A model generated the notes under the pieces. It was not told the DNA's origin and searched no databases. It saw nothing but the letters and a program-made list of their open reading frames with translations. 64,000 nt of DNA from a virus: IMG/VR virus record IMGVR_UViG_3300011113_000500, positions 1 to 64,000 of that record; one strand, written 5' to 3'. Of the stretch, positions 24,944 through 47,362 are shown piece by piece (positions within the stretch are counted from its first letter, which is position 1; each line of letters starts with the position of its first letter). The translations under genes and the position numbers were made by a program.

Positions 24944-24982
24944 AATTTATCTCCTTTTATATTTCAAAGAACGTCTACATTG

Positions 24983-25056
24983 TGCGCCCTCCTGGGATCG
25001 AACCAGGCACCTACTGATTATGAGTCAGTTGCTCTAACCGAATGAGCTAAGGGCGC
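24983..25056 (-). tRNA. tRNA-Met(CAU) (or Ile2-CAU)
   Basis: A full cloverleaf: acceptor GCGCCCT/AGGGCGC, D-arm GCTCATTCGGTTAGAGC, anticodon stem ACTGA/TCAGT around CTCATAA (anticodon CAU) and T-arm CCTGG-TTCGATC-CCAGG. CCA is not encoded. An elongator Met or an Ile tRNA with modified C34 cannot be told apart from sequence by eye. Confidence 0.9.
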
Positions 25057-25791: not shown

Positions 25792-25804
25792 AACTCAAAA
25801 TTAG

Positions 25805-25877
25805 TAGCGGGGGATGGATTCGAACCACCGGCCTTTAGGTTATGAGCCTAACGAGCTACCAACTGCTCTACCCCACA
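25805..25877 (-). tRNA. initiator-like tRNA-fMet(CAU)
   Basis: Acceptor TGTGGGG/CCCCGCT leaves a 1-72 mismatch (T-T), which is the hallmark of bacterial initiator tRNA. The anticodon arm TTAGG-CTCATAA-CCTAA has CAU, and the D-arm AGCAGTTGGTAGCT and the T-arm are normal. A phage initiator tRNA could support high-level initiation. Confidence 0.8.
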
Positions 25878-26815
25878 ATATAAAAATGCCTGAGACTACA
25901 GCATATGTACTAGGTCTTTTGTCGGATTATGTATTCCCTTCTTGTCCACCAACTTTTGATTGGTATCCTAGCAATGCCGGTTATTTAAGTGAACCACTCT
26001 TTGAGCTACATGTTTTGGACTACTCTCGTCGTACTCTATCTGTTCAACCCTGCCGAGCTGATTCATCCTTGCGGGACTACAAACTTTTCAAACGAATCAC
26101 CTTAGGCTTGCGACCTTCGATGGCAATGAACAACTCATTACTAGGTAGGCATCTTTCGTCCGTAGCTGGTAAGCACTTATGCTTTGTTAATTATTAGTTT
26201 TGCTGATAATAGTGCAAAGTGTATTAGTTGCAGATTCGGAAAGTAGTGGCTTACCATTAAGCTAACCCATCTTTTGAACGAGTCAATACTCAACTACTCT
26301 CTGAAGTGTCCCCACTTCCATACTTCAAGAATTCTACGTAAATAAACTTTGGTAAGTCTATCTCCGGTGCAGTAACAGCACCACCTGTACACTGACATTG
26401 CCTTTCGGCTTTAAGATCCCTCTTGTATTGGAACTCGCAATGATATACTCGGATAAGCATACTTCTTGCAGAATATTCGTTCCTATAGGTTATTCTTATT
26501 GCTCTTCCGAACTCAACCAAATGACCTGCATCACCTGGTCATCAATTCACTTCCCTTACAGTGTCACCCTCAGGTACAAAGAATTGATGATATCCTACTT
26601 GCCTACTCAAGCTCGCAACAACCGAAGCTATTACAAACCGCAAACCACATTAACTAAGGTGATTCACTTTATCCTGGTTTCCCAGTTTATTTAACGACCA
26701 TAGGCGGCCGATTATCATTTATCAGATTAAATGTCTCATAATCAACCCGAAGGTCTCATAATCAACTACTGAATGGATAATAATATTTTCAAAGAACTTT
26801 CTATCTTCTAACTTA
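25878..26815 (-). ncRNA. candidate large structured non-coding RNA in the tRNA cluster
   Basis: About 0.94 kb between tRNA-fMet and the promoter at 26820 holds no convincing protein gene, in a genome that otherwise has almost no empty space. On the minus strand it carries many stems: a 10-bp pair (26539-26548 with 26581-26590), GAAGTG/CACTTC (26303-26318), GGTGC/GCACC (26366-26382), an 8-bp pair at 26190-26210, AAGCA/TGCTT (26171-26184) and ACCAA/TTGGT (25948-25964). It also has a UUCG tetraloop (26745-26754) and a GAAA tetraloop closed by GCC/GGC (26400-26409). A tRNA 5'-half-like segment lies at about 26236-26273. Size, promoter and tRNA linkage recall GOLLD/ROOL-type phage RNAs. I cannot confirm a family. 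Confidence 0.55.
26733..26766. repeat. two direct repeats flanking a UUCG hairpin
   Basis: GTCTCATAATCAAC occurs at 26733 and again 20 nt later, with the ACC-UUCG-GGT hairpin between them on the minus strand. They sit in the 5' leader of the candidate non-coding RNA. Confidence 0.5.
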
Positions 26816-26819
26816 TACC

Positions 26820-26851
26820 TAAATATAAGTACGATATTTCAATTTTCCTAA
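26820..26851 (-). promoter_or_regulatory. promoter in front of the candidate non-coding RNA
   Basis: The minus strand reads TTAG (26851-26848), 20 nt, TATATTTA (26827-26820). The first protein start downstream is about 1 kb away (25791), beyond tRNA-fMet, so this promoter appears to serve RNA genes. Confidence 0.65.
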
Positions 26852-26886
26852 TCTTTTTGAAACTTTTTTTCAAAAATGTTTTTTCG

Positions 26887-26972
26887 TACCCGGAGTGGGA
26901 CTTGAACCCACACGAGCATTACTGCTCATCAGATTTTAAGTCTGACATGACTACCAATTCCATCACCCGGCC
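26887..26972 (-). tRNA. tRNA-Leu(UAA) with altered 5' acceptor strand
   Basis: Class II tRNA, 86 nt: anticodon arm TCAGA-CTTAAAA-TCTGA (UAA), variable arm GAGCAGTAATGCTC and T-arm GTGGG-TTCAAGT-CCCAC. The 5' acceptor strand GGCCGGG pairs imperfectly with TCCGGGT (G-G at 2-71, G-U at 1-72 and 7-66). A fragment 0.5 kb away (27441-27468) has the strand GCCCGGA, which pairs fully. The first 10 nt also encode the end of the HNH gene. Confidence 0.82.
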
Positions 26973-27397
26973 ATTCTTTTTGCTTTTAAGGCATGTGATA
27001 TCTTTTTTTTATGTTCGTCACTTTTAAATTTACCTTTATTACCTCTCCCGCCAGCGGACTTATCACCGCTACCATTACGGCGACATGCTTCTGCATAGCC
27101 ATATTTTTCAATCGAACGTTCCCATACACTTTTCCATGTACCATTCTCTTTCGAATCATTTACATTCTCTTTAGGAGTACCAAAATATAAATGTTTTGGA
27201 TTCGAACATTTCGCATTATTACATTTATGACATAGTAAAATTTTATGTCCAGATGGTATTGTTGTTTTTAAAAACTCTGCTAATAATCCTTTGAAGTTAG
27301 TAGAGTTACCTCCTCGTTCAATACACGCATCAGACATATCTAAATGAAGCTGTCTGTCAGATACCGGCAATTCAATGTAAAGTTTAATATCGATCAT
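26963..27397 (-). CDS. HNH homing endonuclease with NUMOD3-like motif
   Basis: The 144-residue protein has LLCHKCNNAKCSNPKHLYFG and then PKENVNDSKENGT, the HNH_3 homing-nuclease pattern. The C-terminus has a NUMOD3-type DNA-binding motif (FKSDEHKKKISHALK). The ATG at 27397 has AAAGGA in front; an upstream ATG at 27424 is less likely. Its stop lies inside tRNA-Leu, and a tRNA-Leu 5' half lies just upstream. This fits a mobile endonuclease inserted into a tRNA gene. Confidence 0.85.
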   Translation of the reverse strand: MIDIKLYIELPVSDRQLHLDMSDACIERGGNSTNFKGLLAEFLKTTIPSGHKILLCHKCNNAKCSNPKHLYFGTPKENVNDSKENGTWKSVWERSIEKYGYAEACRRNGSGDKSAGGRGNKGKFKSDEHKKKISHALKAKRMAG

Positions 27398-27440
27398 ATA
27401 TTCCTTTAAAATAAATATACACATTGAGCCGATTCTATAT

Positions 27441-27672: not shown

Positions 27673-27697
27673 AACTCATTGATTATCAAAAGTTTAT
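27673..27697. repeat. single 25-bp promoter-associated repeat
   Basis: One unit, AACTCATTGATTATCAA followed by AAGTTTAT, overlaps the last codons of the HNH gene at 27686. It has the perfect palindromic core. Confidence 0.55.
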
Positions 27698-28213
27698 ATG
27701 ATGACGCCCTTTAGCACCAAATGGATTACCTACCTGTAGATAATAACAATTGAAGCAAAGCATACGTAAATTCTCCCGTACATGATCATTACGATCGCCG
27801 TTTAAATGATCCAATAGCAATGGAACGGTATAATCGGTTATTCGTCTTTCTTCAAAACCACAGCAATCACACTTTTCTTCAAACTCGCCAGACCTTAACA
27901 AGCGTTCTTTAAGTTTGTATCGATTGTATCCATAATGTTTACCTTCCAGAATAGCTTTGATACTATACGGTCCAGTCAATTTAACTGGCATTGGTTTTGG
28001 AATACCTTTACCAAACGGATTCTTATGTAGGTCAAACAATGTTTTGCCTGTAGCCGGATCGATATACATTTTAGCATACTTCTTGTATACATCATATGAT
28101 ACCTTAAGGAATCTCGCAGCTCCTTTACATGACTTAGAGTTTTCCATTGCATAACGGATCTCTGTCTCTGTTAAGTTGTAAGGTTGTCTTCCTTGTCCTT
28201 TCGCGAATGGCAT
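27686..28213 (-). CDS. HNH endonuclease with zinc knuckles
   Basis: The 175-residue protein has an N-terminal helix-turn-helix-like part (NLTETEIRYAMENSKSCKGAARFL). A C-terminal HNH domain follows: CDCCG, VPLLLDHLNGDRNDH and NLRMLCFNCYYL, with two CxxC pairs. Probably a homing-type or DNA-processing nuclease. It lies directly upstream of the promoter for the tRNA-Leu region. Confidence 0.85.
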   Translation of the reverse strand: MPFAKGQGRQPYNLTETEIRYAMENSKSCKGAARFLKVSYDVYKKYAKMYIDPATGKTLFDLHKNPFGKGIPKPMPVKLTGPYSIKAILEGKHYGYNRYKLKERLLRSGEFEEKCDCCGFEERRITDYTVPLLLDHLNGDRNDHVRENLRMLCFNCYYLQVGNPFGAKGRHHINF

Positions 28214-29379: not shown

Positions 29380-30051
29380 TCAATAAGATACAGTACCAAC
29401 TGCTTTTTGTAAACGTGTTTGTGCAGATTCAAAACAAACTATTTTAAAGAAATCGTTAACATACTTTGCACGATCGTTTTTATACTTCAAGTAATAAGAA
29501 TGTTCCCATAGATCCAATCCGATAAGTATATCACCTGGAATGTTTACTATGTTCATATATGGGTTGTCTTGATTGGGAGTAGTTGCAAAATATAATTGTC
29601 CATTATGATGCATTAACCAACACCAGCCAGATCCAAAATGCTTTGATGCAGCTTCAATAAAGGCTTCTTTGAATTTATCAAACGATCCAAACTGCTTATT
29701 GATCATTGTCAATAGAAGACCATCTTCGATCTTACCCTTACGTTCTGGGTTAAGACCGTTAAAATATATTGTATGGTTGAAATACCCACCCATATTGTTT
29801 CGGAATGTATCACTATATGATCCTACTTTAGATAATAAAACACGTTCAACGTCGTCACCATAGGTTACTGGAATAGCTTCTTTCTTTATAGCTTCGTTAG
29901 CCTTTTCTATGTATCCCATATAATGTTTAGTGTAATGGGTCTTCATAGTTTCTTCATCGAATGGAGAATACTCACTGTACTTGAATGCTAACTTTACCGG
30001 AGTTAGTTCAAATTGTTCTGCTTCACGTAATAATGATTTTAATGATATCAT
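29380..30051 (-). CDS. Fe/Mn superoxide dismutase with a prohead-type leader
   Basis: The 223-residue protein has all four metal ligands of Fe/Mn SOD: His in THYTKHY, His in GYFNHTIYF, and Asp and His in LDLWEHSYYLKYKN. It would turn superoxide into H2O2 and O2. The start MISLKSLLRE differs from normal SODs and matches the short leaders of neighbouring virion-type proteins, ending in L-R-E like a T4 prohead protease site. Packaging in the head is therefore plausible. It is the last gene of the 35-29 kb run before the promoter at 29348. Confidence 0.88.
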   Translation of the reverse strand: MISLKSLLREAEQFELTPVKLAFKYSEYSPFDEETMKTHYTKHYMGYIEKANEAIKKEAIPVTYGDDVERVLLSKVGSYSDTFRNNMGGYFNHTIYFNGLNPERKGKIEDGLLLTMINKQFGSFDKFKEAFIEAASKHFGSGWCWLMHHNGQLYFATTPNQDNPYMNIVNIPGDILIGLDLWEHSYYLKYKNDRAKYVNDFFKIVCFESAQTRLQKAVGTVSY

Positions 30052-34052: not shown

Positions 34053-34301
34053 TTAATTTGGAATTCTGACTTTAAGTTTTGAAATTGCATCTAAAAACTC
34101 TTCTGCGGTTAGATGCTTACCGCGATCCGTAACAATATCGATATGATTAATAATATCATGTTCAGTGTCTATAATTTTTTTAAGTACTTTAAAACCGCTA
34201 GCGGCCCAAAAGACTCCAAATCCATTATCTTCGCCTAATTGCCTATCATCTTTAATAACATCGTTCATTGTATCATCTGGAAATAGAATAAAATATCTCA
34301 T
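34053..34301 (-). CDS. conserved small phage protein
   Basis: The 82-residue protein has YFILFPDDTMNDVI, LGEDNGFGVFWAASGFKVL and a C-terminal LTAEEFLDAISKL helix. The pattern of LFPGD-type start and FWxxSGF occurs in many large phages without known function. Coupled by ATGA to the epimerase gene. Confidence 0.65.
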   Translation of the reverse strand: MRYFILFPDDTMNDVIKDDRQLGEDNGFGVFWAASGFKVLKKIIDTEHDIINHIDIVTDRGKHLTAEEFLDAISKLKVRIPN

Positions 34302-35152
34302 TTATTATAAATATTTAATGATTTTATATAATCCTCTACATTTTCTGTCGGATGCCATCCTAGAATATCGTTAGCCGTTGTATCTGTACATAACGTTTCT
34401 TGAGCCTCGCCGGGTTTATCTTCCATATATTCTATATTTGTTACTCCGTACATATTAGCAATATCACGTACTGAATAATTCTTACCACGGCCTAATTCAA
34501 ATTCATATCCCCAAGCATCTCGTTCATATACTTTAATTAATGCATCTACAATATCATGTACATGTGTAAAGTCTCTACGTTTAGAGCCGTCGCCGTATAT
34601 TATTAACGACTTTCCTTCCTCTATTCGTTTCTCCCATGCGCCTAATAAAGTACAGTACCCACCTTCCTTTAAATGATATGGGCCATAAACATTATAAAAT
34701 CTAGCTATACTAGCTTTTAAATTATAATGTATTTGAAATAGTTTGATAATTTCTTCACCTACATCTTTGCTAAAAGTATATGGATTTTTAAATTTACCTG
34801 AATGGTGTGAACTGCTACCGGCATACACTAATGGTATTTCATTTTCCGCACACCATTTTGCTAACTTCATTGTAGCGTTTGCATTTGTGGTAAAATATAG
34901 TTCCGGATCTGAGAATGATGGCTGTATCCTTGCGGTTGCCGCTAAATGATATACTACATCGAATCTTCCGTATCCGGAATAGTTACTTACATTACGTATA
35001 TCAAACTCAATATACTGACACCCTTTTTGATGATTTGATTTAAGTCCAGTATGATAATTATCAAAAGACACTACCGTATGCCCTTCAGACAATAATCTTT
35101 TAATTAGATTCGTACCTACAAATCCAGCTCCGCCTGTTACTAGTATGTTCAT
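34298..35152 (-). CDS. NAD-dependent sugar-nucleotide epimerase/dehydratase
   Basis: The 284-residue SDR has the dinucleotide motif GGAGFVG (7-13), the VVYHLAA strand, an SSS site and the catalytic YTFSK pair. The C-terminal part has RRDFTHVHDIVDAL, as in GalE/RmlB-type enzymes that act on UDP- or dTDP-sugars. It is the last gene of the glycan cluster; product stereochemistry cannot be told. Confidence 0.88.
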   Translation of the reverse strand: MNILVTGGAGFVGTNLIKRLLSEGHTVVSFDNYHTGLKSNHQKGCQYIEFDIRNVSNYSGYGRFDVVYHLAATARIQPSFSDPELYFTTNANATMKLAKWCAENEIPLVYAGSSSHHSGKFKNPYTFSKDVGEEIIKLFQIHYNLKASIARFYNVYGPYHLKEGGYCTLLGAWEKRIEEGKSLIIYGDGSKRRDFTHVHDIVDALIKVYERDAWGYEFELGRGKNYSVRDIANMYGVTNIEYMEDKPGEAQETLCTDTTANDILGWHPTENVEDYIKSLNIYNK

Positions 35153-36369
35153 AACTTAATTAATTCATGTTCATATGTTTTTACATGTAAAATAGTAATT
35201 TTAAAACAATCGATATGATACTCTCCACATACTTCGTCTATATCTACATCTTTAATTGTTTGTGCTATTACATGCGATAAATTTTGTATGATATCGAAAG
35301 ATCCTTGAGTAAATTTGTTAGCATCAAACTCAACTATTATATCATTTTCCGCATATGGATCGTTTTCTTTTTTGATAAGTACGCGAGTACGTAGATCAAA
35401 CTTAGTATTACTCTGCTCCATTTCAATATAGTCTTGTAGTCTACCTATACTGAATACTTCTTCTGTATATATTCTATCACACCATGGTTCTAGGGCCTGT
35501 AACAGACTAAGGTTGCCGTTATTCATTACAAATGCTACATTATATTTAGGCGGTATTATAGGTTTCATTAAAGCGTCATGTTGTACAAAATGTCCCCATT
35601 TACGAATAAAGTTTCGACTACTACGTACATTTTGAGCTTCCCATTCTGTACTATTTTTACCTGGTGTAGTTAACGTAGGATTAAATCTACTTCCGCGGCA
35701 TGTCATATGATATACACATCCTTTCCATGTTTGGATGAACTTAACTCCATTTAATTGAAATCTATTAAAGATATCACTATCTTCTTTACTCTGCGGTGCA
35801 TATAACGGATCATGTCCGCCTATTTCTTGGAAGTCAGCTTTCATAAATGCCCATGGAGCAAATATGCCTTCTGTTATAGTATTTCCTTTGAAACTATCAA
35901 CCGACGAGAACCATTCCAAAAATTCTCCTTCATTAAAATCTTCAGGCTCAACTCCCCAATCTGCTAATACTTTCTCAGGCCCGTCTGGATGTAATGGCGG
36001 CTCGATTCTTGTTAATGATACAATTTTTTTAGAACCTATATGTTTTTCAATCTCATCTATTGCGCCCGGGCATAGATACATATCTGCATGATATATCATA
36101 CATACGTCATAACTAGCCACTTCATTGACCAATCTATCATATAAAATAGTATGCCCCAAACGTTCCGGGCCTTCGTTGCGAATACATTTAAAGTTAGTAT
36201 CACCGCCTTCTAAAACTTGTTGACACCATTCCCATGTGCCGTCAGTACTAGCATCATCGGCTACGCATATCTCTACGATATGTTCGCCTTGATTGTCTCT
36301 AATTGCTTGATATGCCCATTTAAGGTATTTCAAGTTATTTCTTGTTGGTTGTATTATTGATATGTTCAT
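35149..36369 (-). CDS. family 2 glycosyltransferase
   Basis: The 406-residue protein has a GT-A domain: ISIIQPTRNNLKYLK at the start, CVADDASTDGTWEW, and MIYHADMYLCPG with the DxD-like metal site. EDSDIFNRFQLNG follows. The last 130 residues are an extra domain. It overlaps the epimerase by ATGA. Donor and acceptor unknown. Confidence 0.85.
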   Translation of the reverse strand: MNISIIQPTRNNLKYLKWAYQAIRDNQGEHIVEICVADDASTDGTWEWCQQVLEGGDTNFKCIRNEGPERLGHTILYDRLVNEVASYDVCMIYHADMYLCPGAIDEIEKHIGSKKIVSLTRIEPPLHPDGPEKVLADWGVEPEDFNEGEFLEWFSSVDSFKGNTITEGIFAPWAFMKADFQEIGGHDPLYAPQSKEDSDIFNRFQLNGVKFIQTWKGCVYHMTCRGSRFNPTLTTPGKNSTEWEAQNVRSSRNFIRKWGHFVQHDALMKPIIPPKYNVAFVMNNGNLSLLQALEPWCDRIYTEEVFSIGRLQDYIEMEQSNTKFDLRTRVLIKKENDPYAENDIIVEFDANKFTQGSFDIIQNLSHVIAQTIKDVDIDEVCGEYHIDCFKITILHVKTYEHELIKL

Positions 36370-36375
36370 ATTTTT

Positions 36376-37311
36376 TTATTTAAATACATTATGTATTGTT
36401 TCATATAATTTACTATAATCACGATATCCACGTGCCAGTATGTCATCTTTTTTATCGATTATCGGATATATTGGAGCATTTGATAGTTTCTTGAAATATG
36501 AATCTCCTTCGAAGTATCCAGGACGTATATCACCTGATGTATTAACATAGATTACAACCGGCATACCGAAGTAACTACATAAAATACTAGAACCTCCTCC
36601 CATTGATATGAATCCGGATGCTCTAGAATATATCTTTAATTGAGACTCATTATATGTACCTGGTATACTTGTTACAATATCATCAAATAGATATGCATTG
36701 TCTAACATTTCAATCAATTGATAATCCGTAATGATACCTACACCCTCAACATTTGCTGATATGTTCGGATTAACTAACTCATTCGGGTCAGTAGCAAACT
36801 CAGTATTTTTAGGTCGTTTATATATAACAGAATAACCCTTTTCGGTTAAGTATGTAATGATATTATATAAGGATTCTATATCAAAATATCCTACCGGTGA
36901 TACCCCATGTTCTAGATTATAACGATTTGATATCACAATAAAATTATCTGGTAATTCTAACGATGCATCAAAATACTTAGTTTTATAATCCGGAGCTATC
37001 CATTTTGAATAATCTAAACATCCATTCATTTCATATTGTTCAGCTTCAGTTAGTTCCGAATAATCTTTACCTGTCAATGCTATAGCATTATGATGTATCC
37101 ATGTATTCGGCAAATTCTGCACTCCATTAGTTCTGTTATCTACACTACGTTTAGAATATCGCTCTTCAACATCATCTGTAAAGAAATAAAAAGGCTTCAT
37201 ATCTGTACATGTGATCACTTTTTCTAACATGCCATGTTGTTTCAGCCAATTAGCATATGGAATTGAACAAACTAATTCATATCCAAATTCTGGGTACACA
37301 TCAATTGTCAT
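36376..37311 (-). CDS. GT-B-like glycosyltransferase
   Basis: The 311-residue protein has a FISMGGGSSILCSYFGMPVVIY stretch typical of the donor side of GT-B enzymes such as heptosyltransferases or GT61-type proteins, and a GYSVIYKRPKNTEF segment. No full family match by eye. It lies between sugar-nucleotide genes and overlaps one by 11 nt. Confidence 0.6.
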   Translation of the reverse strand: MTIDVYPEFGYELVCSIPYANWLKQHGMLEKVITCTDMKPFYFFTDDVEERYSKRSVDNRTNGVQNLPNTWIHHNAIALTGKDYSELTEAEQYEMNGCLDYSKWIAPDYKTKYFDASLELPDNFIVISNRYNLEHGVSPVGYFDIESLYNIITYLTEKGYSVIYKRPKNTEFATDPNELVNPNISANVEGVGIITDYQLIEMLDNAYLFDDIVTSIPGTYNESQLKIYSRASGFISMGGGSSILCSYFGMPVVIYVNTSGDIRPGYFEGDSYFKKLSNAPIYPIIDKKDDILARGYRDYSKLYETIHNVFK

Positions 37312-38020
37312 AGTAATATTCCTTTAACTGTTTTAACTGTTCATCTATATCAATTGTTTTGATATGCGGTATTAAACATTTATCAATACCTTTATCAACT
37401 GGTATAATATCGATACGTTTATTAAATATTTGCGATATGAATTGTAACAATGAATGTTTAGATATGCAGTTTCCAGATACTATCGTCTCTACATTATATC
37501 TATCCCAATCTGACATCAAACATTCACATTGTTTAGCCCATTCATATGTAGTAATACCATTCCACATAGCTTGTGTATATCCATTACACGAATCATCGTT
37601 AGTATTTAAAAACCATTCGAGTAAACTTTTCTTATCACGCAGCTCCGGTCCGATTATCGAACTTTTTATAATCTTCGTACGTTTACCATGTAATACAATA
37701 TAATCGCGAGATACTTTTTTAGACAATCCATAATCATCGTTATCCATTTCACAGTCAGTACCAGGATGTATAATTCTAGCATTTGAATTCATATCTAGCC
37801 AAGTCGGTAACATCGAGTTAACATTAAAGTCAGATGTTTTTTGCGGTATTGCGCCTATAGCATTAATAATAAAATCTCCAGAAAAATTTTCTACGGCTGA
37901 CATAAATTCCTTTGAAGGGAATCTACTATCTATTGTAGATATATCATGGCCTTTATCTTTAAAATACTTTACAAGCATATGGCCTAACATGCCATTATGA
38001 CCTAGGATTAAAATATTCAT
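37301..38020 (-). CDS. RmlD-like SDR reductase
   Basis: The 239-residue protein has LGHNGMLGHMLVKYF (dinucleotide motif), FIINAIGAIPQ, DDYGLSKKVSRD (catalytic Tyr-xxx-Lys) and an extended C-terminal part. This matches dTDP-4-dehydrorhamnose reductase-type proteins. Together with the CapD/PseB-like gene it could build an unusual deoxysugar. Confidence 0.78.
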   Translation of the reverse strand: MNILILGHNGMLGHMLVKYFKDKGHDISTIDSRFPSKEFMSAVENFSGDFIINAIGAIPQKTSDFNVNSMLPTWLDMNSNARIIHPGTDCEMDNDDYGLSKKVSRDYIVLHGKRTKIIKSSIIGPELRDKKSLLEWFLNTNDDSCNGYTQAMWNGITTYEWAKQCECLMSDWDRYNVETIVSGNCISKHSLLQFISQIFNKRIDIIPVDKGIDKCLIPHIKTIDIDEQLKQLKEYYYDN

Positions 38021-38927
38021 AACTACTTAAAATATTATTTAATTCATTCTTTTCAACAACTACTTTATCACTAGAAAAATCTGTGAATGGTAAACTTTCG
38101 TTATATACATCTTTATAGTGCATGATATAATATCCGTTATTTGTTTTTACCCTAGGAGCCTCTTCTATAGAAAACATTGATTCATGAATTTTTTCTGAAA
38201 TACGTGGCACTCCTATTTCGTATTCTAGTCCGAATAATTCACGATAGATTTCAAACAAATCTATGATTCTAAATGCTTTTACATCTGGTATTACGTTATA
38301 TCCTGTCAATGTCAATGCATGTTCTATCAAATCAACAGCCTGTTCCGCAGTTATCATAAATCTAGTCATTTCGGTTGAATATACTTTCAATTTATACTTT
38401 TTACGTATAGCATCCCATATTAATGGAATCACACTTCCGGTAGAATTCAATACATTACCATATATCGCTGAAGATAATAGTACATTTGATTTCTCTGCAT
38501 TTACAATAAAAGATTCGCCGGCTACAAATTTCATTGCACCGTACAATGTAGTAGCGGCTCTAGATTTATCCGTTGATACAAAGCATGCGGCTGAAAAATC
38601 ATTTTCTTCTGCGACACGTCTCGAATTAACAGCTCCATTAATAATAGTTTGTACGCCTTCTTCTATGTTCTGATCGACTGCCTCGATCTGTTTTAATGAC
38701 GCAGCAAAAATACCAATGTCATGCCCTTTCGATGCTCGCTTCATTAAATCAAAATTACGCACATCTCCTATCACACAATTGATATTAGGAAATTCTTTTT
38801 TAAGATAATAATGTTTAGCTTCGTCACGACTATAAATAGTAATTTCATTATCGTTATAGTAACGATCTATCAAACTACGTCCAAGGAATCCAGCTCCTCC
38901 AGTAATAAAAATTTTCTGATTTTTCAT
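37995..38927 (-). CDS. CapD/PseB-like UDP-sugar dehydratase/epimerase
   Basis: The 310-residue protein has FITGGAGFLGRSL, IFAASLKQIEAVDQN, CFVSTDKSRAATTLYGAMK (Ser-Thr-Asp-Lys and Tyr-xxx-Lys) and EMTRFMITAEQAVDLI. These are the hallmarks of polysaccharide biosynthesis dehydratases of the FlaA1/CapD/PseB type acting on UDP-GlcNAc. It overlaps the RmlD-like gene by 26 nt. Confidence 0.87.
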   Translation of the reverse strand: MKNQKIFITGGAGFLGRSLIDRYYNDNEITIYSRDEAKHYYLKKEFPNINCVIGDVRNFDLMKRASKGHDIGIFAASLKQIEAVDQNIEEGVQTIINGAVNSRRVAEENDFSAACFVSTDKSRAATTLYGAMKFVAGESFIVNAEKSNVLLSSAIYGNVLNSTGSVIPLIWDAIRKKYKLKVYSTEMTRFMITAEQAVDLIEHALTLTGYNVIPDVKAFRIIDLFEIYRELFGLEYEIGVPRISEKIHESMFSIEEAPRVKTNNGYYIMHYKDVYNESLPFTDFSSDKVVVEKNELNNILSSYEYFNPRS

Positions 38928-38939
38928 ATGATGAATATA

Positions 38940-39833
38940 TTAAAGATTATTCGTAAAATCTAATTTTGTGATCACTTTGTTATTATAAATTGGTTTAACA
39001 AATGTCTCAGAATCATGATCTGGCAATCGACCCCATTTATTAATAAACTTCTGCATATTATTTTGTTCTGATACTTGTTGTCGACTCGACTTCGAAGTTA
39101 GTTTATCTTTCGCCTCATCACGAAAATGACTGCCGCGCGCACTGAAATGATATACTACTGACTTGCTAGTCATTTGAAATTGATAGCCTTCTAATTGCAT
39201 ACGTATGAATAAATCCATATCCTCCCAACTAGCAGGAGCAAATAATGGATCATTGCCGCCGATGTACACATAGTCATCTTTACGACAAAAGAATCCTGCA
39301 CCTCCGCCTTTACGAACAGATATATCATTAGTATTAGAAAATTCTAACGCCCATTGATCAAAATATTTGCTATCAAAATCATTATGATATGCTCCGAATT
39401 CTTCTTTGGGCACAAATATCGTACCGGGACGATATTCTGGATCGTTAGGAAATATCTTTGGTTGTATTCTAAAGGATGATGCTATAAGTCTAGTGTTAGG
39501 ATCTAGTCCTTCGTATAACTTAAGTAATTCTAAATCTTGATTAGGTGCAATCCACATATCAGAATGAATAATATTGACAAATTTTGTTTGTGCCATATCT
39601 ACGCATATATTCATTCCACCGCCGATTCCCTTTTCATATTCATTTGATTCGATTCGATACGTTAACTTTAGCTTATCCGCATTCTGCTCTAACCATTCAT
39701 TAGTTCCGTCCGTACAATTTTCTGCGTAAACAACAATAGGTTGTTCTTTATAAAATGCATTCTGCCGTACAGATTGAATCGCTAACTTAAGATATTCTAA
39801 ATTATTATTTGTAGATATGCAAGTAGTAATCAT
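38940..39833 (-). CDS. family 2 glycosyltransferase
   Basis: The 297-residue protein from ATG 39833 (MITTCISTNNN); a TTG upstream is possible but the ATGA overlap supports the ATG. GT-A motifs: VVYAENCTDGTNEW, IIHSDMWIAP (metal site), GGAGFFCRKDD and EDMDLFIRMQLEGY. The last 40 residues are basic. Paralogous in outline to the GT at 35149. Confidence 0.85.
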   Translation of the reverse strand: MITTCISTNNNLEYLKLAIQSVRQNAFYKEQPIVVYAENCTDGTNEWLEQNADKLKLTYRIESNEYEKGIGGGMNICVDMAQTKFVNIIHSDMWIAPNQDLELLKLYEGLDPNTRLIASSFRIQPKIFPNDPEYRPGTIFVPKEEFGAYHNDFDSKYFDQWALEFSNTNDISVRKGGGAGFFCRKDDYVYIGGNDPLFAPASWEDMDLFIRMQLEGYQFQMTSKSVVYHFSARGSHFRDEAKDKLTSKSSRQQVSEQNNMQKFINKWGRLPDHDSETFVKPIYNNKVITKLDFTNNL

Positions 39834-40549
39834 ATTTCTTTTTCCCAATCAATTAATTTAGTAAGCCAATATGATTCCCCATGTGTTGAATATCCCGGTA
39901 GAGGACTTATCAAACGTCTGCCTTTAGCTCCTAATTCTAAAAACATAGAGAAATCATATGGATGTCCTTGCTTTTGTCCGGTTTCTGGGTGATAACCGTT
40001 TGTAAATTTACGTATGATATCTTCATCATCTTTCAGTGTACCTGCCAATGCCGCAAAGGTCATTGTAGTTGAATTTGTGATTTTCCAATGACATGAGTTT
40101 GTAAGAAACACACGCGTCTCTTCACTATTATCCTTACATAACTTATTACCTCCTAGATTTCTTGGCATATACTTATCTGGATGATCATATAAGGTAACAT
40201 AATCTACATTTAACATAAAAGCTTCTTTTAATGCCTTATCTGCTCCAGTACGATGTATATAATCATTTTCTACAAAGTATACCAACGTATCATCTGATAA
40301 TTTTAAAGCTTCTTCAAACGCTAACGTAAACGTACCGGCGCCGTTGCCTATTTTACATTGAATGATATTTTCATTTGCTATATATGTACGAATCATATTA
40401 AGCGTAGCATCGCTGACATTATCAGCTATAATTGTTATATCATTACTACCGAAATGCTTAGTAAAGTTACGTAAACAATTTTCGTTATTAATATACGATG
40501 GCTTTACTTTATTGTAACCGCCATCAGATATTCTATAATAAACTTTCAT
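39830..40549 (-). CDS. GT-A-like protein
   Basis: The 239-residue protein from ATG 40549. GNGAGTFTLAFEEAL and YFVENDYIHR suggest a nucleotide-sugar fold with an END metal site. HPDKYMPRN and a C-terminal STHGESYWL follow. Related proteins occur in phage and bacterial glycan clusters. Family not certain. Confidence 0.65.
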   Translation of the reverse strand: MKVYYRISDGGYNKVKPSYINNENCLRNFTKHFGSNDITIIADNVSDATLNMIRTYIANENIIQCKIGNGAGTFTLAFEEALKLSDDTLVYFVENDYIHRTGADKALKEAFMLNVDYVTLYDHPDKYMPRNLGGNKLCKDNSEETRVFLTNSCHWKITNSTTMTFAALAGTLKDDEDIIRKFTNGYHPETGQKQGHPYDFSMFLELGAKGRRLISPLPGYSTHGESYWLTKLIDWEKEI

Positions 40550-40551
40550 TT

Positions 40552-41517
40552 TTATTTCCAAACATCTTGCCAGGTATATGACTTATATCCTGGATTAAAT
40601 AAATTATAACAATTCTCTGAACACATTTTATTAGCCTTTGAATACCAATCATGCGATTTGCGTTTAGCATCTATATCAGAATTTAAGTACGACTGTTCAC
40701 CTTGCACATACATACGTTTTTTAGGATGCTTACGATTATGAACTAGCAATATATTCTTAAAGTGATATTGAGGTATATTACCTAATATTTTATTAGTCAT
40801 TAACATAAATGAAGAATCTTCATGAATAAAGAATACTGAATTAGGTATGTTAACGCCTGCCCGTATAACTTCTGCGGATATTACTAATCCACATCCGTTA
40901 AATTTATGAGGTGATATAATACGCACGTCTAAATCACTAATCGAATCATTAAACGAGTTCATCTCATCTTTAGTCATAGTATATGGTATACTCCACCAGT
41001 GTTCAGAATCTCCTTCGATAAAAGGTTTATCCGTAAATTCTGTATGTTCTAATGGAGTCCATGTACTGTCCCACATTTTACAAATTCCGAATGTAGCTAA
41101 ATACTTGGGAGTTTGATTATTTACCTGTTGATGTAATGAATCTAGAATGACAAATGCTTGTTTAGGTACAAGCATATCAGACTCGCCCCATATTAAAACA
41201 TCTGACGTATTACAGTATACTTGATTAAATTTTCTACGATAATCAGCAATTGTATGAATATCCCCGACACTACGTATTTGATAGTTGTTTATTCCTAAAT
41301 ACTCTTTAAATATAGAATATATACGTTCTTCCAAAGACCAAAATTCTTGATCCTGTAAACTAGTTTTTTCAAGATCTTGATTCATTACAACTGTACAATC
41401 AACAATGATTTCTCCATCATATTGTTTAATAGCATCTGCTAATGACTCGACATAATCTTTAATCAGATCGACCTCATACCATTGTACGAGGCATCCTATT
41501 GCAAATTTAGTTTTCAT
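40552..41517 (-). CDS. GT-A-like glycosyltransferase
   Basis: The 321-residue protein has VLIWGESDMLVPKQA as its metal site, an AIGCLVQWYEVDL start and a long C-terminal part with Tyr/Trp. It is tightly packed between two other transferases (2 nt gap and 11 nt overlap). Donor unknown. Confidence 0.65.
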   Translation of the reverse strand: MKTKFAIGCLVQWYEVDLIKDYVESLADAIKQYDGEIIVDCTVVMNQDLEKTSLQDQEFWSLEERIYSIFKEYLGINNYQIRSVGDIHTIADYRRKFNQVYCNTSDVLIWGESDMLVPKQAFVILDSLHQQVNNQTPKYLATFGICKMWDSTWTPLEHTEFTDKPFIEGDSEHWWSIPYTMTKDEMNSFNDSISDLDVRIISPHKFNGCGLVISAEVIRAGVNIPNSVFFIHEDSSFMLMTNKILGNIPQYHFKNILLVHNRKHPKKRMYVQGEQSYLNSDIDAKRKSHDWYSKANKMCSENCYNLFNPGYKSYTWQDVWK

Positions 41518-42244
41518 AATTATGTTTAATATTTTCCCACGTAACTTGCATTATTTCATTCCTAAGATTCTTTTCAAATCCATTAAAATGCCATACATAT
41601 CCGTTATTAATAAACTTTAAATCATTTATTAATTCTTTTCTATTTAAATGAGTTAAGTTCCATTTTTTATTTAGAAAAATTATATCCGTATCACGTTTAG
41701 CAATAAAATTAACAGGTGTCTGGTCAGTACCTTTACGTAACGTAGTCTGCATATGTATTAATGTATCACTATTTTCAGACCAAAACTTTGTTATAGTATC
41801 ACATAACGACTTATGTGTCTTATTCAACACAATAAATCCGCAGTTGAAATATTCAGTCCAATCTAACGATACATCTGTAAATAATTTTTGATATCCGTTA
41901 ATACTATCAACAACCCAGCCTATATTATCATTATCACTACAAGCTGCAAATTTATTTTCCGTGAGATCAAAGAAATTTGGTGCATCCCATTTAATCATAG
42001 TATCTACATCTACTAAAGCAACTTGATCATACTCAATTTCGTTTTGATCTAGTATATCTAACACATGCCATCGTTGCCATGTAGCTTTCATATAACTAGG
42101 ATCAGTAATAGGAGTATCTAATACTATTAATTGTACATCATGTTTTTCGCACCAATACTTCCATGTATTTAAACAATATGTTGCATAATTAATAGTATCG
42201 TAGTTTGTTTCTAAATTTGTAATAAAAACTATGTTATTTGGCAT
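41507..42244 (-). CDS. GT8-like glycosyltransferase
   Basis: The 245-residue protein from ATG 42244 (MPNNIVFITNL); the frame is open further upstream but overlaps the next gene heavily. ALVDVDTMIKWDAPNFFDL has the DxD site, and NCGFIVLNKTHKSL and QTPVNFIAK fit GT8/nucleotide-diphospho-sugar transferases. Confidence 0.72.
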   Translation of the reverse strand: MPNNIVFITNLETNYDTINYATYCLNTWKYWCEKHDVQLIVLDTPITDPSYMKATWQRWHVLDILDQNEIEYDQVALVDVDTMIKWDAPNFFDLTENKFAACSDNDNIGWVVDSINGYQKLFTDVSLDWTEYFNCGFIVLNKTHKSLCDTITKFWSENSDTLIHMQTTLRKGTDQTPVNFIAKRDTDIIFLNKKWNLTHLNRKELINDLKFINNGYVWHFNGFEKNLRNEIMQVTWENIKHNYEN

Positions 42245-42971
42245 ATGAATATTCCGCAGATAATGTTCTATATTCGTTGAATATATGTAATAAATTTTGT
42301 TTTTCAAAATAACTGAACATATTTGTTTCGGCATTTCGACAATATGTAGTTAGGTCGATGTCACTAGCACCTGACTTATATGTTTGTGCAGAATGATGAA
42401 TTAATGGGCATTTATCAACAACCCCTACTTTCCAACCTTGTTGTTCGCAAACAATACCTGATAAAACATCTTGTCCCCAACCGTATATTAATTCATTTGG
42501 AAATTGTTCAATATGTTCTATAAAGTCTTTATGTAGTAACGGAGCTTGAAAATCTACCCATTTAACATCACGAACCCCGTCAGTATTCCAACAATGCATA
42601 TATTTCCATTTACATTGATTATTTACTTGTAAAACGCAAGGCGATACAATCTTATAATCGTTAGTAAACATTTCATGGCGTAATGTTTTTATAAAATTAG
42701 GACCTTGTAAAATTAAATCATTGTTAAGTGATAATAAACTATCATAATTTCCAGACTCTATAAAAAACTGTAATGCAATATTTAAAGCTCCGCCGAAATA
42801 TGTATTTTGTCCAGTTTCGTGTGTAGTATATTTACTTTTACGATCATCACGCGATCCGTTATCAATTAAAATTAAATCATAATCATCGTTTTCGTATGGC
42901 TTTAAACTTTCCCAGAGCGAATCAGTAATCTCTGGCATGTTATGATTATAAATCACTGCTAATGTTTTCAT
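42234..42971 (-). CDS. family 2 glycosyltransferase (rhamnosyltransferase-like)
   Basis: The 245-residue protein has LAVIYNHNMPEITDSLWESL, LILIDNGSRDD, YFGGALNIALQF and LSLNNDLILQGP, the order of WbbL/rhamnosyl-type GT2 enzymes (NND in place of DxD). It lies 1 nt from the TylF-type gene and overlaps the GT8-like one by 11 nt. Confidence 0.82.
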   Translation of the reverse strand: MKTLAVIYNHNMPEITDSLWESLKPYENDDYDLILIDNGSRDDRKSKYTTHETGQNTYFGGALNIALQFFIESGNYDSLLSLNNDLILQGPNFIKTLRHEMFTNDYKIVSPCVLQVNNQCKWKYMHCWNTDGVRDVKWVDFQAPLLHKDFIEHIEQFPNELIYGWGQDVLSGIVCEQQGWKVGVVDKCPLIHHSAQTYKSGASDIDLTTYCRNAETNMFSYFEKQNLLHIFNEYRTLSAEYSYAK

Positions 42972-43610
42972 TTATTCCTTTATTATATAACAACCGCATG
43001 GCATACTTTGAAGATCAAATTGAATAATTTCATCTGACTCTGGATGCCTTAGTTTAATTTCAATTTCACGTGCAGTAAAAAAGTCATGTATTGCATGCCG
43101 CGTTTCTACTAAACATGTATCGTCAAAAATAATATAACCGCCAGTAACAACTTTGTCATATAAATGATCTAATACTTCTTTAGTAGCTGAATATGCATCT
43201 ACATCAATACGTAACAAACTTAATGACTGAATATCTGCATTTGATAAAGTATCATCTACATATCCAACTAGAAAATTGATATCATTTATATCGACGCCGT
43301 TAGTTTCAAACGTTTGTATAACATCGGCATATGGAACAGTCATACCGCCTAATTTATGAGTTTCTTTAGAAAAACTATATTTAGCTTTAGTCGGATCTTG
43401 AAATCCTGAAAAACTATCTGCTAACCATAATTTCTTATTAGGAAAAATTTTTCGTAAAAATATTCCCATTCCCCCTTTCCAAACGCCACATTCGATAATA
43501 TCACCGTCTATTGCTTGAATATACTCCGTATGTCGTATTATAGTTTTAAATCGTTCCAATGTAACTTTAGTAAGTCTATCATCGATTATTTGTTGTGCTA
43601 ATTCAATCAT
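42972..43610 (-). CDS. TylF-type methyltransferase
   Basis: The 212-residue protein has DGDIIECGVWKGGMGIFL (SAM loop), LWLADSFSGFQDP, LLRIDVDAYSATKEVL and GYIIFDDTCLVETRHAI. This is the macrocin O-methyltransferase (TylF/NovP) pattern, which methylates sugar hydroxyls. It would O-methylate a sugar of the phage glycan. Confidence 0.87.
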   Translation of the reverse strand: MIELAQQIIDDRLTKVTLERFKTIIRHTEYIQAIDGDIIECGVWKGGMGIFLRKIFPNKKLWLADSFSGFQDPTKAKYSFSKETHKLGGMTVPYADVIQTFETNGVDINDINFLVGYVDDTLSNADIQSLSLLRIDVDAYSATKEVLDHLYDKVVTGGYIIFDDTCLVETRHAIHDFFTAREIEIKLRHPESDEIIQFDLQSMPCGCYIIKE

Positions 43611-44139
43611 TTCGTTGTAAAATACTTAAGCCGTTGTTATTTGTATATCTTTCTTTTAATTGCCATTCTGGATGCTCAGATAAAAATGTTTCAACAGCCG
43701 GCCAAAGTCCGCCTTCTTTACCTGTTACTTCATCTGTATATGCAAATTTAGATGTATCGTGTAAAATAATATACTTACGTACTTTATCTGCATGCAATTT
43801 CAATTCTTGAGTTAGTTGATCATGTTGATGTAAAGTGTCGATAAATAATAGATCTGTTTCTTCTATTTCAACTGAAAGTACATCTTTTTGATGGAATTGT
43901 AATTGTATTCCGACTTCATTAGCAGCTGCTATAGCAGTATCTATATTGTTAGATCTCATGATATCATAACAAATTAATTTATTAGGCATACTTTTTAGAA
44001 ATGCCCATGTCGATACTACATTACGTACTCCCATTTCCGTTATGTGTTTACATTGCGAAGCATAATGATGTAATGTTGGCATATGTTCATTAATATCAGA
44101 TTTACGTTCACAGAACTTTGAATAGTGTTGATTTATCAT
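43603..44139 (-). CDS. Rossmann-fold methyltransferase-like protein
   Basis: The 178-residue protein has ITEMGVRNVVSTWAFL, LICYDIMRSN, LLFIDTLHQHDQLTQEL and YIILHDTSKF, similar to the cephalosporin hydroxylase/CmcI-type methyltransferase group. It overlaps genes on both sides by 4-8 nt. Substrate unknown, probably a sugar. Confidence 0.72.
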   Translation of the reverse strand: MINQHYSKFCERKSDINEHMPTLHHYASQCKHITEMGVRNVVSTWAFLKSMPNKLICYDIMRSNNIDTAIAAANEVGIQLQFHQKDVLSVEIEETDLLFIDTLHQHDQLTQELKLHADKVRKYIILHDTSKFAYTDEVTGKEGGLWPAVETFLSEHPEWQLKERYTNNNGLSILQRND

Positions 44140-45011
44140 ATAAAATTATTATGTTGTTTTATTTCTTTTGGATGATCTATTTCTATACGTACGATATACC
44201 GTAATAAATCATTTTCATGACGATCAGGGCGTATTACGATTTTATCTAAACGATTTTCTTGTGCTTGTAGCAGAGCCTGCCGTACGGCATTTGAATAATA
44301 GTCTGGTCGTATAAGTTGTCTAAATCTTAATTCTTTATATTTGCCCGGGCGCCACCAAGCGTAATGAAATATATATCTAGGAAAAATATGTAATTGTGGA
44401 TATTTTTGACTAGTAAAATTACTTACTATACTCTTGTAATATTCCCATGTACCAAACTTTATAACGATTCTACGTTTATGTATACGACTTTCATCTAAAC
44501 TTTCAGCCTCAATATAATATTGATTTTCGATAAAATCTAAATACGGTGCTTGCAATCCACTATCATTTGTCAATTTGTCAATATATTGATTTAATACAAT
44601 CATATCGTTCTTATGAAAGAAAACGTCGCCTTCTAACGGGAATATTAAATCGCCTGGTTCGATTTGTATATCAAACTCATTAAAGTTACTTACAGCATGC
44701 ACGTAACACTCATTAGCATCTAGATTCGAATAGTTCATGGCATTCCATATTATTCGTTTATCCGGATACATATCTTGAGCTTGTTTAATTACATGTTGTA
44801 ACTCCAATGTGTCCCATGCCAGATTAGTATCTAAATGACAGAATTCTGTACGAAACATTTCATCCACGCCTCCCTTATTTTCAGGTCCTTGCGGAAATAA
44901 TCCTTCATTATATATAATGATGTCTGGATCGATAGTATCAATTAGATTATCGATTTGTAGTTTTGCAAAATGTGCTTCAGCAAAACATGGAATTATAACT
45001 ATCTTTTTCAT
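44136..45011 (-). CDS. probable glycosyltransferase, family not assigned
   Basis: The 291-residue protein has IPCFAEAHFAKLQIDNL at the start and FPLEGDVFFHKND, an acidic site in the place of a GT-A DxD. A basic C-terminus with RFRQLIRPDYYSNAV follows. Its place in the middle of a transferase run supports a sugar role. Confidence 0.58.
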   Translation of the reverse strand: MKKIVIIPCFAEAHFAKLQIDNLIDTIDPDIIIYNEGLFPQGPENKGGVDEMFRTEFCHLDTNLAWDTLELQHVIKQAQDMYPDKRIIWNAMNYSNLDANECYVHAVSNFNEFDIQIEPGDLIFPLEGDVFFHKNDMIVLNQYIDKLTNDSGLQAPYLDFIENQYYIEAESLDESRIHKRRIVIKFGTWEYYKSIVSNFTSQKYPQLHIFPRYIFHYAWWRPGKYKELRFRQLIRPDYYSNAVRQALLQAQENRLDKIVIRPDRHENDLLRYIVRIEIDHPKEIKQHNNFI

Positions 45012-46006
45012 TGTTTCCAGAATGAGTATATACCATTATCTAATTCATAATCAGACCATACAAAACGATCTCTCATAGGCTGTTCTTGTGCCCATGACCA
45101 CATCTTAGTTAATCCTTCTTTAAGGTCTGTTTTATGCTGAAATCCTAGAATGTCAATCGATTTTTGATAACTAGGTATTGCTGTATGTACTTCATGGCGA
45201 CCCTCTAAATATATTTTATTGCCACCACCGATAACTTCAATTAGTGTATCAGCTGCTTCATTTATACTATGTTCATGTATACCGCCCAAATTAATAATTT
45301 GTTTAGAAGCTTTTGGTTCGATAGCCGCATTAAATAATGGCTCTAATGAATCATCTATATATGAAAAAGCACGTTGCTGTGTACCGTCTCCGTATATAGT
45401 AATATCTTGTCCATTTAAATGATAATACATCCATATACCTAATACATTACGATACTTATCCCATATGTTCTGCTTCGCTCCATATACATTATGCGGACGT
45501 ATGATACAATAATCTAATCCATGCTGTTCATTAGCAATTTCAATATCACGTTCACATGCTGCCTTCGCTACGCCGTATGGATCAATCGGATCGCGTTTCA
45601 TGTCTTCATGAAATATTCCGCCCTCACCAAAACCATATACTGCCATCGTAGATGTAAACACTAAACGTTTAACATTATGTCGAATACATTCATTGACTAT
45701 ATTTGCTGTAGCTACTAGATTATTTTGATAGTTAAACGTACGTATAAACGGAGAGAGTCCTTCGGCTGCATATGCAGCTAAATGAAATACGTACTCTGGC
45801 TTATGTGAATTAAATATTTCTTTTAGTTCTATATTTTTAACATCTGTTTTATAAAAAATAACATTTGGATGTATATTTTCTATATACCCGCCGGATAAAT
45901 CATCTATCCCAATAATTTGATATTCTGGCTTATGTTCAATTATCCAATCTGCTAATCTACTTCCTAATAGACCAGCTACCCCCGTAATTAATATTGTTTT
46001 ACTCAT
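45008..46006 (-). CDS. NAD-dependent sugar-nucleotide epimerase (GalE-like)
   Basis: The 332-residue SDR has ITGVAGLLGSRL, VFHLAAYAAEG, VFTSTMAVYG, DPYGVAKAACE (Tyr-xxx-Lys), PHNVYGAKQ and AFSYIDDSLEPL. A typical UDP-glucose 4-epimerase/UDP-glucuronate decarboxylase outline. Length is normal for the family. Coupled to neighbours by ATGA overlaps. Confidence 0.88.
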   Translation of the reverse strand: MSKTILITGVAGLLGSRLADWIIEHKPEYQIIGIDDLSGGYIENIHPNVIFYKTDVKNIELKEIFNSHKPEYVFHLAAYAAEGLSPFIRTFNYQNNLVATANIVNECIRHNVKRLVFTSTMAVYGFGEGGIFHEDMKRDPIDPYGVAKAACERDIEIANEQHGLDYCIIRPHNVYGAKQNIWDKYRNVLGIWMYYHLNGQDITIYGDGTQQRAFSYIDDSLEPLFNAAIEPKASKQIINLGGIHEHSINEAADTLIEVIGGGNKIYLEGRHEVHTAIPSYQKSIDILGFQHKTDLKEGLTKMWSWAQEQPMRDRFVWSDYELDNGIYSFWKQ

Positions 46007-46770
46007 AATACTTTCCCGTTAACATGATGTACTGATCTAGGTGCTCCTAATCTATCGTAAATATAAACACCCCATTTTTTTAACGCATCTTCGAATGACG
46101 TTTCTTTTATCTGACGTTGATATTCGTCTTGTAATTCTCGTTCAATTGTTATATGTTCTTTTATCGACGGATCATTTAAATAAGACATCCATACAGTTTG
46201 CCAATTACTCGTACGTCCTAAATATGGATTATTCGACCAACCATTAGTACCACATAATGTAATATTAGTGTTATCAATAGCAAATGTGATTTCTTTCAAT
46301 TCAGAATCACAATTAAACACAATGTTATTTCTTTTATTGAATCTAACATAGTTTATATCATTATTAGACTCCATTAGCTGAATTAATTTAGAGAAATTTA
46401 CATCGCGTTCAAAATGCCAATCATGTTCGAACCATAAAAAATAATCTGTACTTACGGAATTAATCAAATTGATTATAGATTGTCTAATACCTTTAGTAGT
46501 TATTATTAAATTAATATTTGGATAATCAACTAATAGTTTACGTAAGTTATCTAAATATATACAACTGCCTTCATCTGAAGGATCGTGATCTAAAGATATA
46601 TAATGCTGAATATCACGATGTCCTAAATATTCATATAATTTCTCAATCGTACTTTCGATTAATAACGTAGATGTAGTACTACGACTATGATCAAATTTAT
46701 AGTTTTTATCTAATCGATGCGCTGATGCCCTAAAATGTGTCGTTGTTAGTATTGTTAATTTATCTTTCAT
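46003..46770 (-). CDS. GT-A-like protein
   Basis: The 255-residue protein has LTILTTTHFRASAH at the start, YISLDHDPSDEGS and WFEHDWHFERDV as likely nucleotide-sugar and metal sites. It ends with RLGAPRSVHHVNG. No exact family. Located between an epimerase and a methyltransferase. Confidence 0.6.
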   Translation of the reverse strand: MKDKLTILTTTHFRASAHRLDKNYKFDHSRSTTSTLLIESTIEKLYEYLGHRDIQHYISLDHDPSDEGSCIYLDNLRKLLVDYPNINLIITTKGIRQSIINLINSVSTDYFLWFEHDWHFERDVNFSKLIQLMESNNDINYVRFNKRNNIVFNCDSELKEITFAIDNTNITLCGTNGWSNNPYLGRTSNWQTVWMSYLNDPSIKEHITIERELQDEYQRQIKETSFEDALKKWGVYIYDRLGAPRSVHHVNGKVL

Positions 46771-47360: not shown

Positions 47361-47362
47361 AC

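Follow-up and report, generated by a model that had tools for sequence, protein, structure and literature searches.

A complete GOLLD RNA in the tRNA cluster of a virus with T4-like replication genes, with a leader resembling boxA and an initiator-like tRNA at its 3′ end

Results

The Locus and the Phage That Carries It

The window, by which we mean the whole 64,000-nt stretch of DNA that was analyzed, belongs to a 68.4-kb IMG/VR virus record with T4-like replication genes, in which the DNA polymerase fragment and the clamp loader are closest to those of Microcystis, Synechococcus, Pelagibacter, Sinorhizobium and uncultured huge phages, all at less than 60% identity. The phage also encodes, on the minus strand, an Fe/Mn superoxide dismutase (29380-30051) and a GroEL (56126-57739), and a long minus-strand run of genes at 34298-53804 has translations that read like glycosyltransferases, nucleotide-sugar epimerases and methyltransferases, a putative sugar-modification block that is unusually large for a phage. 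The subject of this study is a stretch of ~0.93 kb between a tRNA-Leu(TAA) and a tRNA with a CAU anticodon, laid out as follows (A1 denotes the alignment of GOLLD loci described below, and env-38 the GOLLD RNA whose structure has been published).

24982-25056, minus strand: elongator-type tRNA-Met(CAU), with C11:G24 and the anticodon stem UGA/UCA
25804-25877, minus strand: initiator-like tRNA(CAU) called by ARAGORN, beginning 9 nt past the GOLLD 3′ end
25887-26301, minus strand: GOLLD 3′ domain (Rfam RF02032), model positions 1-416 of 416, 263.9 bits
26187-26240, minus strand: variable linker in the 3′ domain, consisting of unpaired and poorly conserved A1 columns, at the position of the disordered linker of env-38
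26302-26800 (to ~26815), minus strand: GOLLD 5′ domain, outside the Rfam model, which aligns with 36 other phage loci and whose helices 2-23 covary
26539-26548 / 26581-26590, minus strand: 10-bp stem (helix 8), with two-sided changes in 7 of 9 counted pairs and 98.8% pairing
26782-26797, minus strand: boxA-like leader GTTCTTTGAAAATATT, with the core GTTCTTTGA at 26789-26797, just after the expected start of transcription
26818-26851, minus strand: candidate GOLLD promoter, with TTAG at 26848-26851, a 20-nt spacer and TATATTTA at 26820-26827
26886-26972, minus strand: tRNA-Leu(TAA), which bounds the GOLLD stretch

Two HNH endonuclease-like genes lie upstream of the GOLLD stretch near the tRNA-Leu (26963-27424 and 27686-28213, both on the minus strand), and HNH genes are likewise found near GOLLD in Mycobacterium aubagnense and Acinetobacter phage AM24.

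The Stretch Belongs to the GOLLD Family

The initial annotation, made from the letters alone, had proposed a large RNA of the GOLLD or ROOL kind, being either a member of such a family or a new analogue of it. An Rfam search of the window, which was the check suggested at that time, identifies the minus strand as GOLLD: the match spans the whole of model RF02032 and its score of 263.9 bits (E=4.8e-74) lies well above the curated gathering cut-off of 150 bits, whereas tmRNA and RNase P RNA had no match in the window even at E<=1. The same holds for ROOL RNA, which resembles GOLLD in being large, phage-linked and cage-forming but has a different fold, and no other large RNA family matched the stretch even at this permissive threshold. 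A match to sR5 at 26700-26745 scored 21.4 against a cut-off of 40 and was taken as chance.

As the Rfam GOLLD model describes only the 3′ half of the molecule, the 0.5 kb upstream of it was examined separately. Relatives were collected from IMG/VR with one conserved motif of the 3′ domain, by which 90 stretches were found and 80 listed; 71 of the 80 listed records (34 of 41 and 37 of 39 in two batches) score above the GOLLD cut-off. A scan of bacterial genome contigs with one exact motif only gave 75 matches, none of which is GOLLD by profile search and which we regard as chance, and plasmids held no match to the Rfam GOLLD consensus. In the 5′ region most of the relatives can be aligned to the window, with 91% identity for the nearest counterpart (L059) and mostly 65-75% for the others, the overall range of 65-91% referring to alignable parts only.

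Thirty-seven distinct full-length phage GOLLD loci, the window included, were brought together in alignment A1. Its consensus fold comprises 192 pairs, in which 97.2% of cells are standard-paired, compared with 79.0% when the letters of the 3′ strands are shuffled and ~40% when the partners are slid. Two-sided changes occur in 139 of the 192 pairs against 97.6 in shuffles, and none of 500 shuffles reaches any of the observed measures; the shuffles ignore relatedness while the slid controls preserve it, and the fold, having been derived from the same alignment, is biased in its own favor, but the gap to the slid controls is nonetheless very large. The helices span both domains. Those of the 3′ region (24-39) nearly all have two-sided changes, giving the conserved, covarying 3′ secondary structure by which GOLLD RNAs are recognized, and the less conserved but structured 5′ region of ~400 nt that accompanies it in this family is found at 26302-26800 (helices 2-23, 37 loci). 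Covariation among homologues from related phages, which had also been put forward as a check, is therefore present in both domains.

Several details of the initial annotation can be read against this fold. The UUCG loop, the GCC-GAAA-GGC hairpin and the 10-bp stem that it pointed out are all present. The tRNA 5′ half that it saw embedded at 26236-26273 is called by neither ARAGORN nor Rfam and was rejected, the sequence being part of the covarying GOLLD helices 24-26. No tRNA was found in the linker at 26187-26240, which, by analogy with env-38, would be expected to lie within the cage. Its description of ~0.94 kb without a credible gene holds: protein homologues, named beforehand as an observation that would speak against a noncoding RNA, were searched for in Pfam and PHROG and none was found at E<=0.01. 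Frames of 127 and 98 aa on the plus strand and 76 aa on the minus strand do exist, but we give practically no credence to one of them being a gene, since none has a relative in either database and the relatives differ by numerous indels while conserving base pairs, and a protein-coding origin of the stretch was rejected.

The Rfam score, the covariation over both domains and the relatives scoring above the cut-off thus identify a member of the known GOLLD family and not a new analogue. Judged from its sequence, the minus strand encodes a complete, full-length GOLLD RNA of ~0.93 kb. GOLLD RNAs are borne by phages or prophages, often near tRNAs, and the RNA described here comes from an IMG/VR virus record and has five tRNAs around it. 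Members of the family are expressed as large RNAs whose level rises during lysis.

Compared with the RF02032 family and its env-38 member (PMC12286853), the window RNA shares the full 3′-domain model, the two-domain layout, the length of ~0.9 kb, the phage-borne state and the setting in a tRNA cluster; it differs in having no tRNA in its linker, and the comparison with env-38 covers the 3′ domain. The GOLLD RNA of M. aubagnense, which is expressed at a low level, similarly lies, along with an HNH endonuclease gene, within a large cluster of tRNAs, but differs in having its own pseudo-tRNA inside GOLLD and an actinobacterial host (PMC6582537).

Loop Contacts of a Putative Cage

Cryo-EM of GOLLD env-38 is reported to show 14 copies forming a hollow cage through kissing loops and A-minor contacts (PMC12286853). 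By position and pattern, we equated loops of the window RNA with L20, J13/15, L21a and L21b of env-38.

26181-26182, minus strand: GC that follows the linker, assigned to J13/15; its partner is the hairpin-loop GC at 26110-26111
26110-26111, minus strand: GC in a hairpin loop, equated with L20 (B7-type kissing contact), complementary to 26181-26182
26071-26072, minus strand: self-complementary GC in the loop assigned to L21a (bridge B8), from the A1 loop pattern
26052-26053, minus strand: GC in the loop assigned to L21b (bridge B9), kept in 37 of 37 loci

The B7-type dinucleotides are complementary in all 37 loci (GC/GC in 19, GG/CC in 16 and UC/GA in 2), with at least four concerted switches on a tree built without those columns. 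The L20-J13/15 pairing that characterizes bridge B7 is thus found, and we infer that the two loops correspond to L20 and J13/15 and that the pairing here would join separate molecules. The L21a-type loop reads CGCAA in 31 of the 37 loci and GGCA in three, and two huge-phage sequences have CG, in agreement with the GC/CG switch published for bridge B8 of GOLLD (PMC12286853); one locus with an insertion (L044) was left out of this count.

Two huge-phage genomes, LR745206.1 (L152; 634,780 bp) and LR756502.1 (L153; 642,428 bp), are unannotated and carry a full GOLLD, at 4440-4845 (287 bits) and 4421-4827 (275 bits), respectively; at the B7-type contact both read UC/GA instead of GC/GC.

The window RNA therefore retains B7-, B8- and B9-type loop pairs like those of env-38 (PMC12286853). 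By analogy, it would assemble into a hollow homo-oligomeric cage, with cage formation and stoichiometry carried over from this single cryo-EM structure.

An Initiator-Like tRNA Directly 3′ of GOLLD

The tRNA that closes the stretch had been annotated as tRNA-fMet. Its initiator-like character stands, as the tRNA at 25804-25877 has A11:U24 and, by inspection, a U1.U72 mismatch in place of a Watson-Crick 1:72 pair; an fMet identity is plausible but falls short of the strict form, as the anticodon stem is AGG/CCU and lacks the three G:C pairs (GGG/CCC) of initiators. The window has both CAU types, the initiator-like one adjoining GOLLD and the elongator type at 24982-25056.

Among 75 distinct GOLLD loci, a tRNA follows GOLLD within 30 nt on its 3′ side in 28, and 22 of these tRNAs have the anticodon loop CTCATAA. 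For tRNAs called by ARAGORN, the anticodon is CAU in 19 of 25 GOLLD-adjacent tRNAs compared with 29 of 301 others in the same loci (p ~4e-13; both the tally and the p value ignore relatedness, and there are 7 changes on the tree). Just one of the 19 adjacent CAU tRNAs (L054) has the elongator-type C11:G24, which is present in 13 of the 29 CAU tRNAs elsewhere. A11:U24 is found in eight of the 19 and an RGG/CCY anticodon stem in eleven, with the full initiator GGG/CCC in six (L002, L066, L229, L232, L249 and L255); the remaining adjacent CAU tRNAs are variants that do not fall firmly into a class. The spacing of 9-10 nt between GOLLD and tRNA recurs in Acinetobacter and Streptococcus phages and in LR756502, where the tRNA is Asp (Acinetobacter), has a UUA anticodon (Streptococcus prophage) or has an undefined anticodon (LR756502).

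Other arrangements were seen at individual loci. Streptococcus phage Javan636 (L293) has, 10 nt past GOLLD at 1874-1951, a tRNA with the anticodon UUA (ARAGORN), possibly an ochre suppressor. In phage DSS3_MAL1 (L294; 1370-1833 and 1891-2307) a tRNA-Arg lies within the GOLLD span and a tmRNA gene follows directly downstream. At five loci (L090, L003, L011, L037 and L040) a conserved short element (CGCAA...AGAGGNTCGTTTCCTCTATTGCG) replaces the tRNA in the first ~60 nt past GOLLD and, by eye, looks like an acceptor stem and T-arm without D and anticodon arms.

No tRNA lies directly 3′ of GOLLD in 45 of the 75 distinct loci, and at several of these terminator-like hairpins are visible by eye, so that a tRNA is not needed at this site and release by RNase P cannot be general. 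The env-38 RNA is described as located downstream of a Met-tRNA, and the linker as a place where tRNAs are sometimes found, and the available part of that account mentions neither an initiator-like tRNA directly 3′ nor a boxA-like leader (PMC12286853). As a recurrent feature, the initiator-like CAU tRNA directly 3′ of GOLLD is apparently new.

Whether this adjacency has a function is close to an even call. It is quite possible that the initiator-like tRNA is simply one of the tRNAs in a phage array, placed beside GOLLD by shared ancestry and a common insertion site and without any functional link: these phages are rich in tRNAs, a Thr, Gly, Asp or UUA-anticodon tRNA can occupy the site, and many GOLLD loci have no tRNA there at all. 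Such an origin is harder to square with the prevalence of the CTCATAA type next to GOLLD (22 of 28) when CAU is found in so few of the other tRNAs (29 of 301), and with a spacer that is as short as 9-10 nt even in unrelated phages.

A Probable Bacteroidota-Like Promoter and the Likely Host

The initial annotation had placed a consensus promoter at 26820-26851. A promoter upstream of GOLLD is likely, though of another type than the general sigma-70 one, which was rejected: a scan for TTGACA/TATAAT calls none at 26820-26851, and its matches in the region number 9 against 10.3 expected. What stands directly before GOLLD, at 26818-26834 on the minus strand, is TCGTACTTATATTTAGG, a copy of a motif that is repeated across the phage. 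This motif, TTGTACTTATCTTTATG, has 9 matches compared with 0.85 expected, a number reached by none of 100 shuffles, and further copies stand before protein genes. In front of the leader motif, many relatives also have TAnnTTTG or TAnnTTTA, with the exact TAnnTTTG in 15 of 41.

Promoters of Bacteroidota have the form TTTG-N20-TAnnTTTG (the -33/-7 type), which TTAG-N20-TATATTTA resembles, and transcription would start at ~26812-26818. Shine-Dalgarno-like sites are rare in the window (9 of 62 frames; background 7.9%), which fits Bacteroidota. Together, the form of the promoter motif and the rarity of Shine-Dalgarno-like sites make a host among the Bacteroidota likely. There is no second TTGTACTTATCTTTATG-type copy on the minus strand between 26818 and 24443, and GOLLD and the four tRNAs downstream of it may hence be one transcription unit.

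A boxA-Like Leader Shared with Bacteroidota rRNA Operons

Of 63 distinct GOLLD loci, 41 carry the motif GTTCTTT[AG]A in the 5′ leader, where 0.28 would be expected from shuffles and 1.12 from its density elsewhere in the loci. In a set of rRNA operons from Bacteroidota genomes, mostly of the class of Mucilaginibacter (Bacteroidia), the same motif is present in 20 of 22 16S leaders (0.03 expected) and 14 of 18 16S-23S spacers (0.15 expected). Identity between GTTCTTTGAAAATATT and some Bacteroidota rRNA leaders extends to 16 nt, as expected of a boxA that matches the rRNA leaders of the (presumed) host group, and in the A1 consensus fold the leader motif is essentially unpaired. The motif thus occupies the site that boxA has in rRNA operons. 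In E. coli, boxA of these operons is reported to bind NusB and NusE (S10) and is regarded as a safeguard against Rho-dependent termination (PMC4807359). From the leader core common to Bacteroidota 16S leaders and GOLLD leaders, we infer that the phage GOLLD RNA may be antiterminated like rRNA, via a boxA-type leader. Like the leaders of rRNA operons, GTTCTTTGAAAATATT stands close to where a long structured RNA that is not translated begins; unlike them, that RNA is phage-encoded and without rRNA, and a boxA role is suggested by likeness of sequence. Its occurrence on GOLLD appears to be new.

The leader motif is missing in 22 of the 63 loci and was not found near the GOLLD of Acinetobacter, Mycobacterium, Streptococcus or Ruegeria phages. 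Its absence in these four host groups marks it as a feature of a clade and not part of GOLLD as such, and we rejected the boxA-like leader as a general GOLLD feature. A second GTTCTTTGA lies at 24964-24972 on the minus strand, in the same possible transcription unit; a total of two matches in the window is within what chance can give (17 of 100 shuffles).

This distribution also allows another account, in which the RNA is GOLLD but GTTCTTTGA is part of the start region and not a boxA, resembling rRNA leaders without binding Nus factors. Conservation largely confined to a single related clade (33 of 37 A1 rows), the loci that lack the motif and its absence near GOLLD of other host groups would all agree with it. 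We nevertheless think it rather unlikely, given the identity of up to 16 nt between GTTCTTTGAAAATATT and Bacteroidota rRNA leaders, the 41 loci, which are far beyond the 0.28 expected by chance, and a motif that is almost unpaired in the fold, as expected of a protein-binding leader.

Discussion

Overall, the best explanation of the locus, and in our judgment a probable one, is a GOLLD RNA of a T4-like phage that is transcribed in the manner of rRNA, is freed at its 3′ end through a tRNA and forms a cage. RNA polymerase would transcribe GOLLD from the candidate promoter at 26818-26851, and the boxA-like leader would load the NusB/S10 antitermination complex of the host, in the same way as rRNA operons do, which would let the untranslated 1-kb RNA reach its end without termination by Rho. 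Processing of the tRNA, by RNase P at its 5′ end, would then free the 3′ end of GOLLD, and the RNA would fold and self-assemble via its kissing loops into a hollow homo-oligomeric cage, comparable to the 14-mer of env-38.

As to what such a cage may do, handling of tRNA or ribosomes late in infection seems the most likely of the options, a role favored by the link with tRNAs and by the published finding that GOLLD pulls down ribosomes (cited in PMC12286853). One published GOLLD is reported to be dispensable for phage production (cited in PMC7567579). A more specific proposal is that the GOLLD of Bacteroidota phages mimics an rRNA operon, its boxA leader recruiting Nus factors, processing of its initiator-type tRNA freeing the 3′ end, and its cage acting on translation initiation late in infection, for instance by holding initiator tRNA or ribosomal subunits; taken as a whole we consider this improbable and offer it as speculation.

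On the question of why phages carry protein-free GOLLD cages, this locus and its relatives offer two features open to bench experiments. The rRNA-like leader hints at a way for a phage to produce untranslated RNA of a kilobase in length, and the recurrent initiator-like 3′ tRNA hints at how that RNA may be ended and at a link to translation. The locus and its relatives also suggest Bacteroidota as likely hosts for a large group of GOLLD phages from the environment.
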